Assembly (NCBI GenBank): GCA_028718375.1
Contig: JAQULZ010000012.1
Span: 1 to 34,646, forward strand
Direction: 5' to 3'
DNA length: 34,646 bases
Origin: Victivallaceae bacterium
GTDB lineage: Bacteria > Verrucomicrobiota > Lentisphaeria > Victivallales > Victivallaceae
Part shown: positions 8,539 to 15,738 of the stretch, in pieces
How positions within the stretch are numbered: the first letter of the stretch is position 1
Layout: every line of letters starts with the position of its first letter
Notes under the pieces: generated by a model
Seen by the model: the letters and a program-made list of their open reading frames with translations, nothing else
Database searches by the model: none
Told to the model about the DNA's origin: nothing
Program-made: the position numbers and the translations under genes

Positions 8539-8549
8539 AATAGATTAAG

Positions 8550-8739
8550 GCGGGCTCTGCCCGCAACCCAAATGAGGGTTTGCATGGCAACCCGGTCCAG
8601 CCGTTCGGCTGGTTGTGGTCCAACAGCAAAAGCGTTGGCCGCTTGCAGAGCATGCGGAGCGGTCCGGCAGTTCGCGCCGGGAAGCGAGCAGGATAGTTAT
8701 CCTGCGCCCTTTTATGATAGAAGGGTAAAATAAAGACAC
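8550..8739 (+). promoter_or_regulatory. Highly structured leader region upstream of MttB-like gene
   Basis: Serial hairpins: GCGGGC-TCT-GCCCGC (8550-8564); GGGTTTGC..GCAACCC (8576-8593); CCAGCCG-TT-CGGCTGG (8597-8612); CCAAC..GTTGG arm (about 8615-8643); GCAGGATA-GT-TATCCTGC (8688-8705). Confidence 0.55.
8666..8739 (+). repeat. Copy A of inverted leader repeat (shared with 15628-15738)
   Basis: CGGCAGTTCGCGCCGGGAAGCGAGCAGGATAGTTATCCTGC plus CTTTTATGATAGAAGGGTAAAATAAAGACAC; nearly identical blocks occur in inverse orientation at 15738-15628. Confidence 0.85.
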
Positions 8740-8765
8740 TAAATGGAGTAAAATAAGGATTTCTT

Positions 8766-10202
8766 ATGAAACTTTCTCAATGGAAAACGCTTACCGATGA
8801 TGAAATCAGCCGGATCCACGCGGCTTCCCTGGATATTCTGGAAAATACCGGTTTGCTTTATGAAAGCCGGGAGGTAAGACAAATACTCCTGGCCGGCGGA
8901 GCGTCCTGCACGGGCGAAATGGTTCGTTTTCCCAAGCAACTTGTCGAGGATTGTATTGCCAGGAACAAAAGCACGGTGAATATCTGCAACCGCGAGGGGC
9001 GCGAGCTTTTTGCTATCGGAGACGGTCAAGTAAGATTTGCGGGAGGACACAATGCGGTTTTTGTAATGAGCGATGACAAGGGCTCCAGAAGAAGTTCCGT
9101 TCTGAAGGATGTCGAGGATTTCGCGAAAATCTGCGAAGCCCTGGAGGATATTGATATCGTGGGTGTTCCTCTCAATCCCGGCGATGTTCCGGACCGGATG
9201 ATGCTGGCCCATGCGGTGGCCGCGATTTTGAAGAATTCAAAAAAGCCGGTTTTCTTTTCTTCTGAGAGCAGGGAAGTGAACCGGGCAATTATAGAATTGG
9301 CCCGGCAGACGACCGGGATAAAGGATTTCAGGGAAAAGTCCAGCATGATAAGCCAGCTTTCCTCCACCAGTCCGCTTTACTGGGAACCGGGAGCCGCTGA
9401 ATCAGTGGTTGAATGTGCCCGCGCCGGGATGCCGCTGGCTTTTCTTCCCCAACCCATCGCCGGCATGACGGCGCCGTACACGCTGGCGGGAAACATTACC
9501 GTCCATAATGCGGAAGTTCTTTCCGGAGTCGTACTTGCCCATCTGGTAAATCCCGGCGCTCCCCTGATTTATGCGGCCGCTTGGACGGTCTGCGATATGC
9601 GTTACGGCAATGTGATAATAGGCCGCCCCGAAGCCGCGTTAATGAGAATTGCCGGGGCGCAAATGGCTCGTTTTTATCATATGCCCAGTCACTGCATCGG
9701 TCCGGATTCCGATTCCAATTTATATGACGAACAAATGGGCTGGGAGAAAATGATGAGTCTGCTCGCGGCGGTTTCGGGCGGGAATGACCTGATCGTCAAC
9801 TCCGGAATGTTCGGTACCGGTATGACCGCGACCAATGAACAGCTTCTGCTCGACAACGAAATGAACCGGTTTGCCAGGCGAATGGCCGCAGGAATAAACG
9901 TCAGTTCCGAAAGCATCGCGGCCGAACTTATTAAAAACATCGGGCCGCGAGGAATTTTCCTTGACTCCGAGCATACCCTGATGAATTTGCATTCGGGCGA
10001 ACATGTCGAAAGCCTTGTGATAAAGGGGCTGAATTATGAAAACTGGAAAAATAACGGGGCACTAAGCGCTTCCGCGCTGGCCGATGAAAAAGTTGAGGAA
10101 ATCTTAACGGCGAAAAACGCTTCAGTTCTTGCTGAGGATAACGCACTGGAGCTCGATGAAATCCTGAAAAGATGGGACGAGAATCAGGCGGCACATGAGT
10201 AA
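8766..10202 (+). CDS. Trimethylamine methyltransferase (MttB) superfamily protein, non-pyrrolysine type
   Basis: MttB-family pattern: HAASLDILENTGL, ...GPDSDSNLYDEQMGWEKMMSLLAAVSGGNDLIVNSGMFGTGMTATNEQLLLDNEM, IGPRGIFLDSEHTL; uninterrupted reading frame. Confidence 0.85.
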   Translation: MKLSQWKTLTDDEISRIHAASLDILENTGLLYESREVRQILLAGGASCTGEMVRFPKQLVEDCIARNKSTVNICNREGRELFAIGDGQVRFAGGHNAVFVMSDDKGSRRSSVLKDVEDFAKICEALEDIDIVGVPLNPGDVPDRMMLAHAVAAILKNSKKPVFFSSESREVNRAIIELARQTTGIKDFREKSSMISQLSSTSPLYWEPGAAESVVECARAGMPLAFLPQPIAGMTAPYTLAGNITVHNAEVLSGVVLAHLVNPGAPLIYAAAWTVCDMRYGNVIIGRPEAALMRIAGAQMARFYHMPSHCIGPDSDSNLYDEQMGWEKMMSLLAAVSGGNDLIVNSGMFGTGMTATNEQLLLDNEMNRFARRMAAGINVSSESIAAELIKNIGPRGIFLDSEHTLMNLHSGEHVESLVIKGLNYENWKNNGALSASALADEKVEEILTAKNASVLAEDNALELDEILKRWDENQAAHE

Positions 10203-11532
10203 AAAGAATAAAAAACTGCTTCCCAAAATAGGTGTTGCCGCATTGTCGAGCCCGCTGGAAATCGGAGCTGGACGCGCGCCCGGCGTGGCGGCAGAGTTTA
10301 CGGATAAACTTGCGGCGGCGGGGTGCACGGTTATCAATCTGGGAGCGCTGCAGAATATCCGGGATTCGCGCCGGGCGGGAATGAAGCTTTACGACGAACG
10401 CGCCGCGGCGCTGCTCGCAGTTCCGGTTTCCTGGTACGAGGATTATCTGATCATTGACCTCCTGGAAGAATGGCCGGGCCCCTTGCTGCTCTGGCCCTTG
10501 CCGGGACTCGAGACCGGAGCCTTGTGCGGAGCACAACAGAACATGAGCTTTTTAAAACGCCTGCACCATCCGGCGGAATACGTGTTCGGGGAGCCCAATA
10601 ACCGGCAATGCCTGGAACAGGCCATGAAATTTTTCCGGGCCGCCGCTTTAGCGAAAATAATGCGCCGCGCCAAAATCGGTCTTGCCGGACACCGGGTAAA
10701 CGGCATGACTCATACTTCCCCAAATGAATTCATGCTGAAAAGAGATCTCGGCGTCAGGGTAATCCCCCTCGACCTGCCGGAAATCCTTGCCGGCGCAGAA
10801 TCGCAGTCCGAGCCAACCGCCGCGGAAAAATGGCATGAACTATGTTCCGCCGCCGGTTCCTGCAACGTTTCGGAACCGGAAGGCATCTATTCGGTCAAGA
10901 TGTATTTTGCCCTTAAAAAAGCGGTCGAAGAAAAAGAACTGGATGCGCTTGCGGTCGGATGTTATCCGCAACTGATGGGTAAGGTATGCCTTGCCGCATC
11001 GCTGCTGGCGGACGATGGGGTCCCGCTGGCCTGTGAAGGGGACGTCAACGGCGCTGCCGCCATGCTTATGCTCAATCGGCTGTCCGGGGAAGCGGTGCAC
11101 AATTGCGACTGGCTTGAACCGATAGGACGAGATACGGTACTCTTTACTCATTGCGGTTCAGGCTCCTTCTCGCTGGCGCAAAAGCGGGAAGACATAAACC
11201 TTGCCTCCGTCAGGCTCATGGGACAAGGCGTCTGCGCCCAGTTTCCCTCGAAACCGGGACCGGTCACCCTTCTCAACCTGACTCCGGGCGAAAATGGTTA
11301 TCTGAGCGCGGTGCTTGAAGGTAAAGCGGTCGAAACCGAAATGCTCTTTCCGGGAAACCCGCTGAAAGTCCGCTTTAAAACTCCCCTGAGCGAAATAAAC
11401 GACTGGATTTTCAGCAACGGCCTCGGTCACCATTGGATGGCCGCCTATGGCAATTACTTTCCGGAAATCAAATATTGGAGTCAAATTTCAGGGAAAAATT
11501 TGAACCGGAAAAATATTTTGGCCTTAAATTAA
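10195..11532 (+). CDS. L-fucose/L-arabinose isomerase-like sugar isomerase family protein
   Basis: DALAVGCYPQLMGKVCLAASLLADDGVPLACEGDVNGAAAMLML and HCGSGSFSLA resemble FucI/AraA-like proteins; ATG overlaps the MttB-like stop (ATGAGTAA). Confidence 0.72.
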   Translation: MSKKNKKLLPKIGVAALSSPLEIGAGRAPGVAAEFTDKLAAAGCTVINLGALQNIRDSRRAGMKLYDERAAALLAVPVSWYEDYLIIDLLEEWPGPLLLWPLPGLETGALCGAQQNMSFLKRLHHPAEYVFGEPNNRQCLEQAMKFFRAAALAKIMRRAKIGLAGHRVNGMTHTSPNEFMLKRDLGVRVIPLDLPEILAGAESQSEPTAAEKWHELCSAAGSCNVSEPEGIYSVKMYFALKKAVEEKELDALAVGCYPQLMGKVCLAASLLADDGVPLACEGDVNGAAAMLMLNRLSGEAVHNCDWLEPIGRDTVLFTHCGSGSFSLAQKREDINLASVRLMGQGVCAQFPSKPGPVTLLNLTPGENGYLSAVLEGKAVETEMLFPGNPLKVRFKTPLSEINDWIFSNGLGHHWMAAYGNYFPEIKYWSQISGKNLNRKNILALN

Positions 11533-11578
11533 AAGCAAACGGCGGGGTTTCAGACTTCCGCAACCGCCAAACCAAGGG

Positions 11579-12277
11579 TTACTGGCCGTAATAAGCGCCG
11601 TTGCCGTGTTTTCGCTCGAAATGTTTTTTGATCAGAGTCTTTTTTATGCGGCTTATCGAACTGTCAAGCTGTTCGGAAAGCAGCGCCATGGTACAGATCT
11701 CTTCCAGCACCTTGGAATGATATACCGCCTGAAACGCATCACGCCCCCAGGTAAACGGGCCATGGGAAGCCACTAACACCATAGGAACATGAGCCGGAGA
11801 AAGCTGATTCGTTTTTAAGGTTTTGATTATCTGGTATCCGGTTTCTTCCTCATAATTTCCGTTAATCGCGCGATCGGACATTTCAGGAGTGCACGGAACA
11901 TCACCCGGCAAATGATCCGCATGGGTGGTTCCGTAAATGGGAACCGGGCGCTTGGCCTGGGCCCAGGCTACCGCATTCGTCGAATGCGTATGAACAATGC
12001 CGCCGATATCCGGAATTTCTCGATATAACACCGCATGAGTAGGGGTATCCGAACTCGGCCTCAGCTTGCCGGACACCTGCCGGTGGTCGAAATCCAGCAC
12101 AATCATGTCCTGCCAGGTCAATTTATCATACGGCACCCCGCTTGGTTTTATGGCAAAAACTCCCGCCTGCCGATCCCCGGCGCTGGCGTTGCCGAAAGTA
12201 TAAAAGACCAGCCCCAGCCGGGGAAGCGCTAAATTGGCCTCAAAACATTGTCTTTTGAGCTCATCGTATTGGTGCAT
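11579..12277 (-). CDS. araD: L-ribulose-5-phosphate 4-epimerase / class II aldolase family
   Basis: TFGNASAGDR, KPSGVPYDKL, DTPTHAVLYREIPDIGGIVHTHSTNAVAWAQA, GTTHADH, VASHGPFTWG. Confidence 0.9.
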   Translation of the reverse strand: MHQYDELKRQCFEANLALPRLGLVFYTFGNASAGDRQAGVFAIKPSGVPYDKLTWQDMIVLDFDHRQVSGKLRPSSDTPTHAVLYREIPDIGGIVHTHSTNAVAWAQAKRPVPIYGTTHADHLPGDVPCTPEMSDRAINGNYEEETGYQIIKTLKTNQLSPAHVPMVLVASHGPFTWGRDAFQAVYHSKVLEEICTMALLSEQLDSSISRIKKTLIKKHFERKHGNGAYYGQ

Positions 12278-13346
12278 GGTTTCCGCTCCCTGTTTTCAGT
12301 TTAACATTGCCGGCAATAATATTCCGGGGGTTTTCCCATACCAGTTTCCGCACCACCTTTTCCGGCAGCCCCAGCTCATAAACCCGGAAGGGCTCCCGGC
12401 TCCGGTTGAACGGCGGATGTTCCTGAACCCCATTGCCGGATAGAAACCGGATATGGGAGGCGAAAAAATCCACTGACGTTTCAATATAACTTGCTTCCGG
12501 ATCAGCACCGTTCAAAGCCACTTCTCCCGGCTGATATAACGACTGGGCTTGTACTCCGGCCGCCACATTCAGGTCATCGTAGATCATATCAGTTCCGAAC
12601 AAAATGCGATCCTGGTACTTGATGATAAATTCCCGGGAATATTCGCTTCTGACTTCCGACTTGCCCATTTCCGGGATCCGCGCCGAAATATCATAGTAAA
12701 GGTTGGGGAAATTATCCAGCGCTTCGGCCGCGGGAATCAATGCGTGTGAAAGGCTGCCGAGATGCGGACAAATGAACTGCGTTTCCGGAAAAAGAGCAAT
12801 TACCTCATCCCGTTCGGCAATCAACTCTTCGAGCGACGGGTAATGCTTCCGGTAATAACTCCACCACGCATATTCGCCGTACAACACCCCATTCCAGAAA
12901 TTAAATTTGTTCACCGGCTGCCAGAAATAAACCGGATCCGCGGTATGAATCAAAACCGGAATCCCCAGCTTGCCGGCGGTCTCCCAAATGGGGTACAATC
13001 CCGGATCGTTAATGCGCCGGAAGGAATTATCTTTGCCGCGATACTCCAGTCCCAATGCCTTGTATATTTTCAATCCGGACATTCCCGCCTTGACATCTGC
13101 AGCCAGTTGTGCCGCGGCTTTCTCGCCGAAATCCGGTTCGTTGATGCGTGAAAAATCCACGTTCCCGAAAATTACGAACCGGCCCGGATAACGCTCGGAA
13201 AGCTCAAGATATTTTCGCAGCCCGGGACCGAATCCGTCATGCCAGGCGAGCAATCCGGCAGTTTCCACGGAACACCTATTCATGACCTTGATCGCCAAGT
13301 CCGCATATTGCGGAAATACGTGAGTGTGAAGATCGATTGTTTTCAT
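12261..13346 (-). CDS. Amidohydrolase family protein (metal-dependent TIM-barrel)
   Basis: MKTIDLHTHVFPQ, GLKIYKALG, PVLIHTADP, FICPHLGS, RILFGTDMIYDD; start set at the internal Met before the DLHTH motif. Confidence 0.82.
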   Translation of the reverse strand: MKTIDLHTHVFPQYADLAIKVMNRCSVETAGLLAWHDGFGPGLRKYLELSERYPGRFVIFGNVDFSRINEPDFGEKAAAQLAADVKAGMSGLKIYKALGLEYRGKDNSFRRINDPGLYPIWETAGKLGIPVLIHTADPVYFWQPVNKFNFWNGVLYGEYAWWSYYRKHYPSLEELIAERDEVIALFPETQFICPHLGSLSHALIPAAEALDNFPNLYYDISARIPEMGKSEVRSEYSREFIIKYQDRILFGTDMIYDDLNVAAGVQAQSLYQPGEVALNGADPEASYIETSVDFFASHIRFLSGNGVQEHPPFNRSREPFRVYELGLPEKVVRKLVWENPRNIIAGNVKLKTGSGNHAPIR

Positions 13347-13356
13347 ATTCTTATGC

Positions 13357-13662
13357 TCACAGATTCTCGTAGAACTCAATTTTGACTTTTTCAAAAAAAC
13401 GCAGTTGTAACGGGCGCAATGCTTCGTGTTCCGCATCTTCTGAGAAAAAATGAAGCGCCGCATGGGCCGCGTTCAAGTCGGGAAACTCGGCTTCCCAGAT
13501 CAGTGAATTGCACGGTTCGGAAGCGGCGAGCGGTTTCATTCTCCGGCCCTGCGGATAATCGGCACGCCGGGATTCCAGTTCGGCAAACTTTTTTTCCAGC
13601 TTCATGAATTCGTCTTCGCAGCGGACATCAAACCTTTGAATTATTCTCATGGTAACACTCAT
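13357..13662 (-). CDS. Small hypothetical protein, possible dimeric alpha-beta barrel
   Basis: ATG overlaps the PfkB stop (ATGA); about 100 aa with MRIIQRFDV..., LIWEAEFPDLNAAHAALHFFSEDAEHEAL. Confidence 0.6.
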   Translation of the reverse strand: MSVTMRIIQRFDVRCEDEFMKLEKKFAELESRRADYPQGRRMKPLAASEPCNSLIWEAEFPDLNAAHAALHFFSEDAEHEALRPLQLRFFEKVKIEFYENL

Positions 13663-14720
13663 GATAAACATCCTTCGTTGTTTTCCGGTTTCAGCTTCAA
13701 CAAACGGCCTAGTGCGGGAGGCAGTTGAGGCTGCTTCAGGGCAAATTCGCTTAAAGCCGTCCGGTCAATACCCTTATGGATACTGTCCGGGACGGTTACC
13801 GACAGAGCAGCGGTTAAAACGGCCAGCACCTGGGCGTCCCGCAGTTCCAGTCCCGCGGTCAACCCCACGATCAGGCCCGAAAGATACGCATCGCCGGCTC
13901 CCGCGGTTCCGACCGCATGAACCGGCACCGGAGCCTGAAAATACATTTTCCCCCGGTCCCATATCCAGCTTCCGGTTTTGCCGGCGGTAATTGAGAGCTG
14001 TAAGCGGGGGTGGACTGCGGAAATTTTCCGGACGCTTTCCGCGACTATTTTATCCGGCGGATTCCGGCTGGAAATTTCCGCCAGACTGGATGCCTCATCG
14101 ATATTGATCGCCAGCAGGTTTACCAGTGACAGCAGATTGTTCTTTCTGACTTCCGGCATCTCTTCCGAAAGAAAAGACGCGATGCGCAAGGCATTGCACC
14201 TGGCCGCCGCTTCCAGCAGCGCTTGCCGGCTGTTCAGCGGAACTTCCGGAACTGCCAGAGCAATGCATTTGCCGCCGTTCTTTTCAAGCACCGGCAAGGC
14301 CGCCGCCACGTCCGCTCCGGAAACCAGCGAACATGCCGATTCGTCAACCGTAAGGTTTCCGCCGCTGCCGTCGGGATAAATGAAACAGATACAACAAAGC
14401 GTCGGTTTTTTATCGGTGATTTTCAGGAAGTCCGTTTTCAAACCGGCCTGCCGCATTTCTTCAATGAGTTCATGTCCGGCCTTATCATCACCAACTTGTC
14501 CTATCGGGTAAACCTGAAATTCGGCCCCCAGCAGCGTTCGGACATAATGGCCGATTATATGCTGCTTGCAATAATCGCGATGCTTCAGAAAATGGCCGCT
14601 TCGGCTCTCCTCCCGGCCGAGAGTATGATTCCCGTTCAACGCGAAAAAGCTGCCGGTGCCGATTCCGCCGGTTGAAACCATCGCCCGATATTTATAAGTG
14701 CCGGTAATGCCGCTGTTCAT
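13659..14720 (-). CDS. PfkB-family carbohydrate kinase
   Basis: C-terminal PfkB signature AVGTAGAGDAYLSGLIVGL; GNLTVDESACS; SITAGKTGSWI. Confidence 0.88.
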   Translation of the reverse strand: MNSGITGTYKYRAMVSTGGIGTGSFFALNGNHTLGREESRSGHFLKHRDYCKQHIIGHYVRTLLGAEFQVYPIGQVGDDKAGHELIEEMRQAGLKTDFLKITDKKPTLCCICFIYPDGSGGNLTVDESACSLVSGADVAAALPVLEKNGGKCIALAVPEVPLNSRQALLEAAARCNALRIASFLSEEMPEVRKNNLLSLVNLLAINIDEASSLAEISSRNPPDKIVAESVRKISAVHPRLQLSITAGKTGSWIWDRGKMYFQAPVPVHAVGTAGAGDAYLSGLIVGLTAGLELRDAQVLAVLTAALSVTVPDSIHKGIDRTALSEFALKQPQLPPALGRLLKLKPENNEGCLS

Positions 14721-14721
14721 G

Positions 14722-15612
14722 CTACGGAACCAGCTCCCATTCCGGATGCAGGCTCACCGGATGCCGGGCGGTTTCGAGAGTGGCCGTGATCAGCGCATCG
14801 GGATGTTCCTGGAGCAGGGTGAGGGGATATTCCGCCGTCAGAGGCCCGAACAAGGCTACCCGCAATGCGGTCTGTTTCCACGCCCCCGTGTCACTGAATA
14901 CCCTTACTTTGCGGGCGGAGAGGCATTCGCTTATGCCTAAGGTAACCGACATCGGGGGAACGAACTGGTATGCGGCGCCGAAACTTCGCTGAGCCAGCGC
15001 TATTATGGTGTCGATATTGTTGTTCTGAAGGCGTACCGTCGAGGCTCGCAGTTCATCCAGGGTTATCGGACTGAACGGCTCCCGCCGGGTTTGATTGTAC
15101 GCCAGGTGTCCGTCCTGACCCCAGCCGCCGTAGGTCAAATCTATGGGAGCTTCTCTGATAGTTTTCCGTATTTCTTCAATATTAGCGGGCATCAGCCATT
15201 TACGGTTCGCCTCCGGCACGGATAATTCCTTTCTTACCGGAGCGTAAAAATGTTCTTCCATGAAACCTCTGAAACTGTAAGGATGCCGGCGGGAAAGTTC
15301 GCGTCCCTGCCAGTCCAGACATTCGTCCATATGGAAAACGATGAAATTGCGCAGTGAAACGTTTTTTTGGTTGACCAAATTCGTAAAAGGCTCGTACCAG
15401 CAGGCGGGGCCGCAGGGAATTATTGCCCGGAATTGACGCCCCTCCCGGTTGGCCAGGTCGATTTCCTTTACCAATTCGTCGGCCATCAGACCGCCCATCG
15501 CACGGCGGTCCCGGCATATTCTGAACGGTACTTTCAGTTGGGGATTTGCTTCCAGTTCCTCGGCCGGGATGCGGCACCAGCCGTATAATTCCCGTTTCGT
15601 AAAATCACTCAT
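14722..15612 (-). CDS. NagB-like (glucosamine-6-phosphate deaminase/isomerase) family protein, divergent
   Basis: IPCGPACWYEPF, FHMDECLDW, GGWGQDGHLAYNQTRREPFSP, MSVTLGISECLSARKV. Confidence 0.8.
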   Translation of the reverse strand: MSDFTKRELYGWCRIPAEELEANPQLKVPFRICRDRRAMGGLMADELVKEIDLANREGRQFRAIIPCGPACWYEPFTNLVNQKNVSLRNFIVFHMDECLDWQGRELSRRHPYSFRGFMEEHFYAPVRKELSVPEANRKWLMPANIEEIRKTIREAPIDLTYGGWGQDGHLAYNQTRREPFSPITLDELRASTVRLQNNNIDTIIALAQRSFGAAYQFVPPMSVTLGISECLSARKVRVFSDTGAWKQTALRVALFGPLTAEYPLTLLQEHPDALITATLETARHPVSLHPEWELVP

Positions 15613-15627
15613 ATTTTACCTCATCTC

Positions 15628-15738
15628 GTGTCTTTGTTTTCCCTTCCATCATAAAAGCGTTTCTAAATCCGGAATTTCCGCCAGGAAATTCTCGGGGGCA
15701 GGATAACTCTCCTGCTCGCTTCCCGGCGCGAACTGCCG
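15628..15738 (-). repeat. Copy B of inverted leader repeat (shared with 8666-8739)
   Basis: Minus strand CGGCAGTTCGCGCCGGGAAGCGAGCAGGAGAGTTATCCTGC ... CTTTTATGATGGAAGGGAAAACAAAGACAC, plus an extra hairpin GAATTTCC-TGGC-GGAAATTC (15672-15691) absent in copy A. Confidence 0.85.

Follow-up and report, generated by a model that had tools for sequence, protein, structure and literature searches.

The two matching leaders that precede an MttB-family methyltransferase gene and a glucosamine-6-phosphate-isomerase-like (NagB-like) gene in the window (the whole 34,646-nucleotide stretch of Victivallaceae DNA that was analysed) are very probably, at about 0.87, copies of an interspersed repeat that is specific to the order and built as a modular array of hairpins. 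Its palindromes would be short and perfect and stand in a set order (hairpins 1-5), with a conserved tail (...GAAGTGTAAAAYAAAGACACTAA) behind them in this genus. Intergenic sites would have gained and lost the repeat, its spread presumably occurring by copying as DNA or single-stranded DNA. If the MttB-like or NagB-like operon is affected at all, this would be a by-product of insertion. The copies are dispersed, keep a fixed module order, have covarying stems, are present or absent at equivalent sites and show no gene specificity. The arrays are an interspersed palindromic repeat of the ordinary kind, and no description of the family was found in Rfam or in the open-access literature, including that on Lentisphaerota/Victivallis-type bacteria.

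Modular structure of the two copies

Of all inverted-repeat pairs in the window, that of 8665-8709 and 15694-15738 ranks first, with 96% complementarity over 45 nt (i.e., copy A at 8665-8709 on the forward strand matches copy B at 15738-15694 on the reverse strand at 96% over this length). A 28-nt core pattern searched with up to three mismatches matched the window exactly twice, at copies A and B (0 expected, from 100 shuffles), and over the 45-nt block these two copies are each other's closest relatives. A second shared block, CTTTTATGAT.GAAGGG..AAA..AAAGACAC, lies at 8709-8741 (+) in copy A and at 15670-15628 (-) in copy B. The distance from its end to the start codon is 24-25 nt in copy A (ATG at 8766) and 15 nt in copy B (ATG at 15612). 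Two matching leaders in inverted orientation before both lead genes, as reported in the earlier note, are present at these positions. Both genes lie outside the repeat: the MttB-family gene downstream of copy A occupies 8766-10202 (+; Pfam MTTB, 1.8e-93) and the NagB-like gene downstream of copy B occupies 14722-15612 (-; Pfam Glucosamine_iso, 0.006, below the cut-off). For the 445-amino acid protein encoded at 10195-11532 (+), apparently in an operon behind the MttB-like gene, a Pfam scan at E 1 gave no match.

The architecture of the repeat can be read from the C28 copy in the same genome, which is a 163-nt unit. Its hairpins are, in order, TTAAGGCGGGCTTTGCCCGC (hairpin 1), CGCGC-TTT-GCGCG (hairpin 2), CCAGCGGTTCGCCGCTGG (hairpin 3) and CCAGGGCAAGCCCTGG (hairpin 4), and it continues with GAAAATCC-TGT-GGATTTTC (hairpin 5) and a tail ending AAAATAAAGACACT. 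Judged by its modules, copy B is hairpins 3-4-5 plus the tail. It begins with a hairpin-3-type module, CGGCAGTTCGCGCCG (15724-15738, -), identified from the core pattern, the inverted-repeat pair and the covariance model. This is followed by a hairpin-4-type module, GCAGGAGAGTTATCCTGC (15698-15715, -), placed by its hairpin and the covariance model alignment, in which the stem is shortened to 6 bp (GCAGGA-GAGTTA-TCCTGC) because of a T/G change. Next come a perfect 8-bp hairpin-5-type module, GAATTTCC-TGGC-GGAAATTC (15691-15672, -), which elsewhere reads GAAAATCC/GGATTTTC, and a tail module, ATTTAGAAACGCTTTTATGATGGAAGGGAAAACAAAGACAC (15628-15670, -), placed by the tail alignment and a 79% match to C28 that includes hairpin 5. 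The covariance model of the array aligned with copy B over its whole length, albeit weakly (12.9 bits, E 0.07).

Copy A is a mosaic by the same reading, with hairpins 3-4 and the tail, without hairpin 5, standing behind a start module and a reversed array. It reaches upstream to 8545 with extra modules that are absent from copy B. The 5' start module, TTAAGGCGGGCTCTGCCCGCAACCCAA (8545-8571, +), contains hairpin 1 as GCGGGC-TCT-GCCCGC and matches the first 27 positions of the 163-nt element at 96%, and the array of hairpin-2/3/4 type runs in the reverse direction at 8591-8652 (-; covariance model R1, 25.5 bits, E 6e-6 for the window). The hairpin-3-type module, CCGGCAGTTCGCGCCGG (8664-8680, +), belongs to the inverted-repeat pair and recurs at C1:27888-27929, where the hairpin-4-type module that follows, GCAGGATAGTTATCCTGC (8688-8705, +), is found as the variant GTGCAGGATAATATCCTGCAC. 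In copy A this second module forms an 8-bp hairpin, GCAGGATA-GT-TATCCTGC. The conserved tail (8709-8741, +), which ends AAAATAAAGACACT, is an 84% match to the C28 tail and was placed in an alignment of 13 tails.

The earlier description of the hairpins stands for the 8-bp stem in copy A and the perfect 8-bp stem in copy B, but the first stem in copy B is the shortened one of 6 bp. The 37 nt that had been taken as extra in copy B are not extra: other family members carry this hairpin and CGTATTTAGAAACG at the corresponding place, and so copy A appears to have lost hairpin 5, a direction suggested by the majority of copies.

Copies in the same genome and across the order

The host genome is a 206-contig assembly with a completeness of 87, from which 1.42 of 2.85 Mb was read directly. 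A covariance model built from 27 copies, with about 30 candidates scored per genome, recovered at least 28 (28-29) related arrays in this genome. The 45-nt block was found by own-genome search at a third place, C1:27888, and the second block also occurs elsewhere. Modules of hairpin-4/5 type were located at nine places beyond the window copies, with a complete tail in at least four; C28, C4, C6, C184 and C179 have hairpin 5 with the tail, the C179 copy being truncated at a contig end, and C84, C29, C35 and C55 have hairpins 4-5 but lack the full tail. In the alignment of 13 tails, the final ~14 nt hardly vary. The element ends TTAAGG...CACTAA, giving a 3-bp inverted end (TTA/TAA), and its flanks, inspected by eye, have no constant duplication. 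No mobilising enzyme and no clear target duplication were found for the arrays.

Other repeats share this genome. A second dispersed repeat of ~150 nt, ATACCAATTCG.TCTCATTCATAGACATTTCG...GACTGATCGCTCATTAGTAT, occurs at L025 (~11890-12035) and at least 20 other places in the 1.42 Mb read; it is unrelated to the hairpin arrays, and one copy lies directly upstream of the C4 array. The 12-mers of a short repeat, CCACGAAATACACGAAATACACG, occur ~25-31 times in the same 1.42 Mb, on many contigs. Two partial arrays, at L214 (11366-11485) and L208 (10325-10425), have near-duplicates of a gene start or ribosome-binding segment on either side, as though they had broken up gene beginnings duplicated in tandem.

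Across the order, the covariance model matched 49 of 137 genomes, and module order is constant across its families. In a sample of the phylum, 15 genomes were matched, 14 of them in the order and one outside. The suggestion of a genome-wide repeat family present in leaders, which the earlier note had offered as an alternative, is borne out by the 28-29 arrays in this genome and by their spread through the order. The congener G003 carries many full-length copies of 163-165 nt with 88-91% identity, one pair of which is a head-to-tail tandem. We found no array match in plasmid and phage collections; a viral or plasmid origin was rejected on this basis, with a single chance-like viral contig bearing one hairpin.

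Equivalent sites differ in the presence and length of the arrays. A full copy ends 13 nt upstream of frr in G003, and nothing similar lies upstream of frr in this genome, whose protein is 83% identical to that of G003. The C176 copy of G003 is 40 bp from a gene whose counterpart, on C2 of this genome, has no array there. Between the same two genes in another family there are ~970 nt of arrays in G053 and ~46 nt in G078. The G053 locus (L301, 6600-7760) is a long mosaic in which different hairpins are arranged on a tandem unit of ~410 nt; this unit is present twice in G053 and three times in G058 and is absent in G078. The sequences flanking the C6 copy sit on separate contigs in G002 and G003.

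Position relative to genes

Gene context was taken from a simple ORF caller. Most arrays lie within the 14% of sequence that is outside genes. Called ORFs contain 5 of the 28, and at least two of these ORFs are short and probably spurious. The 22 classifiable arrays face the 5' and 3' ends of the downstream neighbour equally (11:11). Among the tail-bearing copies, 6 of 19 end 3-27 nt upstream of a same-strand start (copies A and B, C184, and three in G003). Random intergenic insertion would place 7.3% of copies there, which gives a post hoc P of ~0.002, calculated for a 30-nt window picked after seeing the data, with a crude ORF caller and some neighbours unassignable. The position of copies A and B, both 15-25 nt from a start codon, together with the 6 of 19 tail copies near starts, is more than indifferent insertion predicts. 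We regard a start-codon position bias of the tail-bearing subfamily, without gene specificity, as a lead, and it is what is left of the earlier note's idea. Copies scattered independently of gene starts, which that note had named as grounds for refuting its proposal, are what the family as a whole shows, although its tail-bearing members are found near starts at a rate above that expected.

One explanation of this bias is that arrays with the tail act as a portable 5' leader or promoter that is inserted, or retained, immediately ahead of ribosome-binding sites. The array would then be an order-specific mobile element with its own upstream signal, its tail-bearing branch giving unrelated genes a common upstream signal, and the MttB-like and NagB-like operons would share an input through insertion. 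The start-proximal copies, including that at frr in G003, and the near-invariance of the tail end are consistent with this, as is the finding of no divergent start within 30 nt of the element's other end. However, the remaining tail-bearing copies are 59-438 nt from a gene or face the 3' end of one, a search of the tail for a sigma-70-type promoter gave no match, frr in this genome does without a copy, and the proximity window was set post hoc. We consider this explanation rather unlikely, and favour the interspersed repeat without a dedicated function at these genes.

Palindromes, RNA structure and known repeat systems

Alternatively, the arrays could be REP/BIME elements of the classical type, with a RAYT (Y1) transposase as the mobilising enzyme. 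They are intergenic, palindromic and mosaic, with tandem copies, as described for REPs and BIMEs (PMC2817692, PMC3733652). Y1_Tnp genes do exist here, but none of the ten PF01797 loci examined in this genome and its relatives has a flanking array. The unit is, moreover, an array of four to five hairpins with a tail, and no constant GTAG/CGTC tag was seen at the palindrome foot, as judged by eye on alignment A1; CGTC occurs next to hairpin 4 (reverse strand) in copies from this genus, and the other family members lack it there. An origin through RAYT is therefore improbable.

The stems of the arrays covary. Across 27 copies from several families, 96.9% of cells are paired, with 21 cells changed on both sides versus 7 in shuffles. 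In a second subfamily (~20 copies from this genome), 98.3% of cells pair and both sides have changed in 22 of them; its covariation score is 0.297, with 0.105 in shuffles. None of 500 shuffles reached the covariation score, a control that leaves the shared ancestry of related within-genome copies in place. Hairpin 5, for example, is wholly different between families, changing from GAAAATCC/GGATTTTC to GAAAAATGC/GCATTTTTC, and is perfect in most copies. A lack of covariation, named in the earlier note as grounds for refuting its proposal, is thus not what we observed. RNA helices usually tolerate G-U pairs. In the arrays such pairs make up only 3 of 716 counted cells, as would be expected of DNA palindromes more than of RNA. 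Given this near-absence, the arms are likely to be kept perfect at the DNA level, which may occur by template switching between arms, for example. Strong covariation within one genome, accompanied by almost no G-U pairs, means that covariation by itself is no proof of RNA; the array family instead points to palindrome upkeep at the DNA level.

These data bear on the proposal, also made in the earlier note, that a dedicated riboswitch-like cis-regulatory RNA or operator controls both operons. The like position at both starts, the covarying stems and the stable predicted fold of copy A (z -3.4) speak for it. The predicted fold of copy B, in contrast, barely exceeds that of shuffled sequences (z -1.7) and loses the separate array hairpins, and the scarcity of G-U pairs argues against RNA. 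Rfam gave no gathering-level match in the window and nothing credible either between 8.5 and 15.95 kb or at loci with full copies; EBER1 and mir-5885, which appeared at relaxed thresholds, were rejected as chance-level matches. A constant position upstream of related genes, as would mark a riboswitch, was not found: the element is dispersed through the genome and the order in unrelated contexts, before unrelated genes and at both gene ends alike. None of 78 loci encoding relatives of the NagB-like protein has upstream similarity to the leader, which also led us to reject a leader conserved together with the gene cluster, and frr carries a copy in the congener and none in this genome. Dedicated control of the two operons is very unlikely in light of this evidence. 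Reading the leaders as copies of an interspersed repeat removes the tempting view of two operons under shared regulation, and the same illusion is to be expected at other genes of the order.

The NagB-like gene itself has relatives with up to 74% identity in many phyla and none above ~34% in the sampled relatives, and was therefore probably acquired. It forms a cluster at 11579-15612 (-) with genes for a PfkB kinase, an amidohydrolase and a class II aldolase; L166 (Verrucomicrobia) and L132 have the four genes in the same order, which suggests that this is a transferable sugar-catabolic operon. The inverted orientation of the paired copies around 8.7-15.7 kb, with 96% identity over 45 nt, speaks for an inversion switch of the intervening 7-kb segment. 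Such a switch is nevertheless extremely unlikely, as 45 bp is a short length of homology, the repeat is dispersed, and no recombinase was seen among the neighbouring genes scanned.

The hairpin arrays resemble several known repeat systems in part. REPs include both GTAG/CGTC-tagged (PMC3733652) and RAYT-associated forms (PMC2817692). Like REPs and BIMEs, the arrays are short, dispersed, intergenic palindromes that form mosaics in either orientation and vary in presence between relatives. They differ in being ordered sets of four to five different hairpins with a ~45-nt tail, and in number, with tens of copies detected as opposed to hundreds. The enterobacterial RU repeats are non-autonomous miniature elements of 127 bp (RU-1) and 168 bp (RU-2) (PMC2759123), and the arrays (~163 nt) fall in the same size class and are likewise intergenic and dispersed, with fairly sharp ends. 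Unlike RU-type elements, they were not seen to have terminal inverted repeats other than TTA/TAA or a clear duplication of the target, and we found no related transposon. Compared by description rather than by sequence, the arrays are also similar to the mosaic intergenic repeats of Neisseria (dRS3-type; PMC3733652) in forming interleaved clusters of modules between genes, but they differ from these in keeping one module order across a bacterial order.
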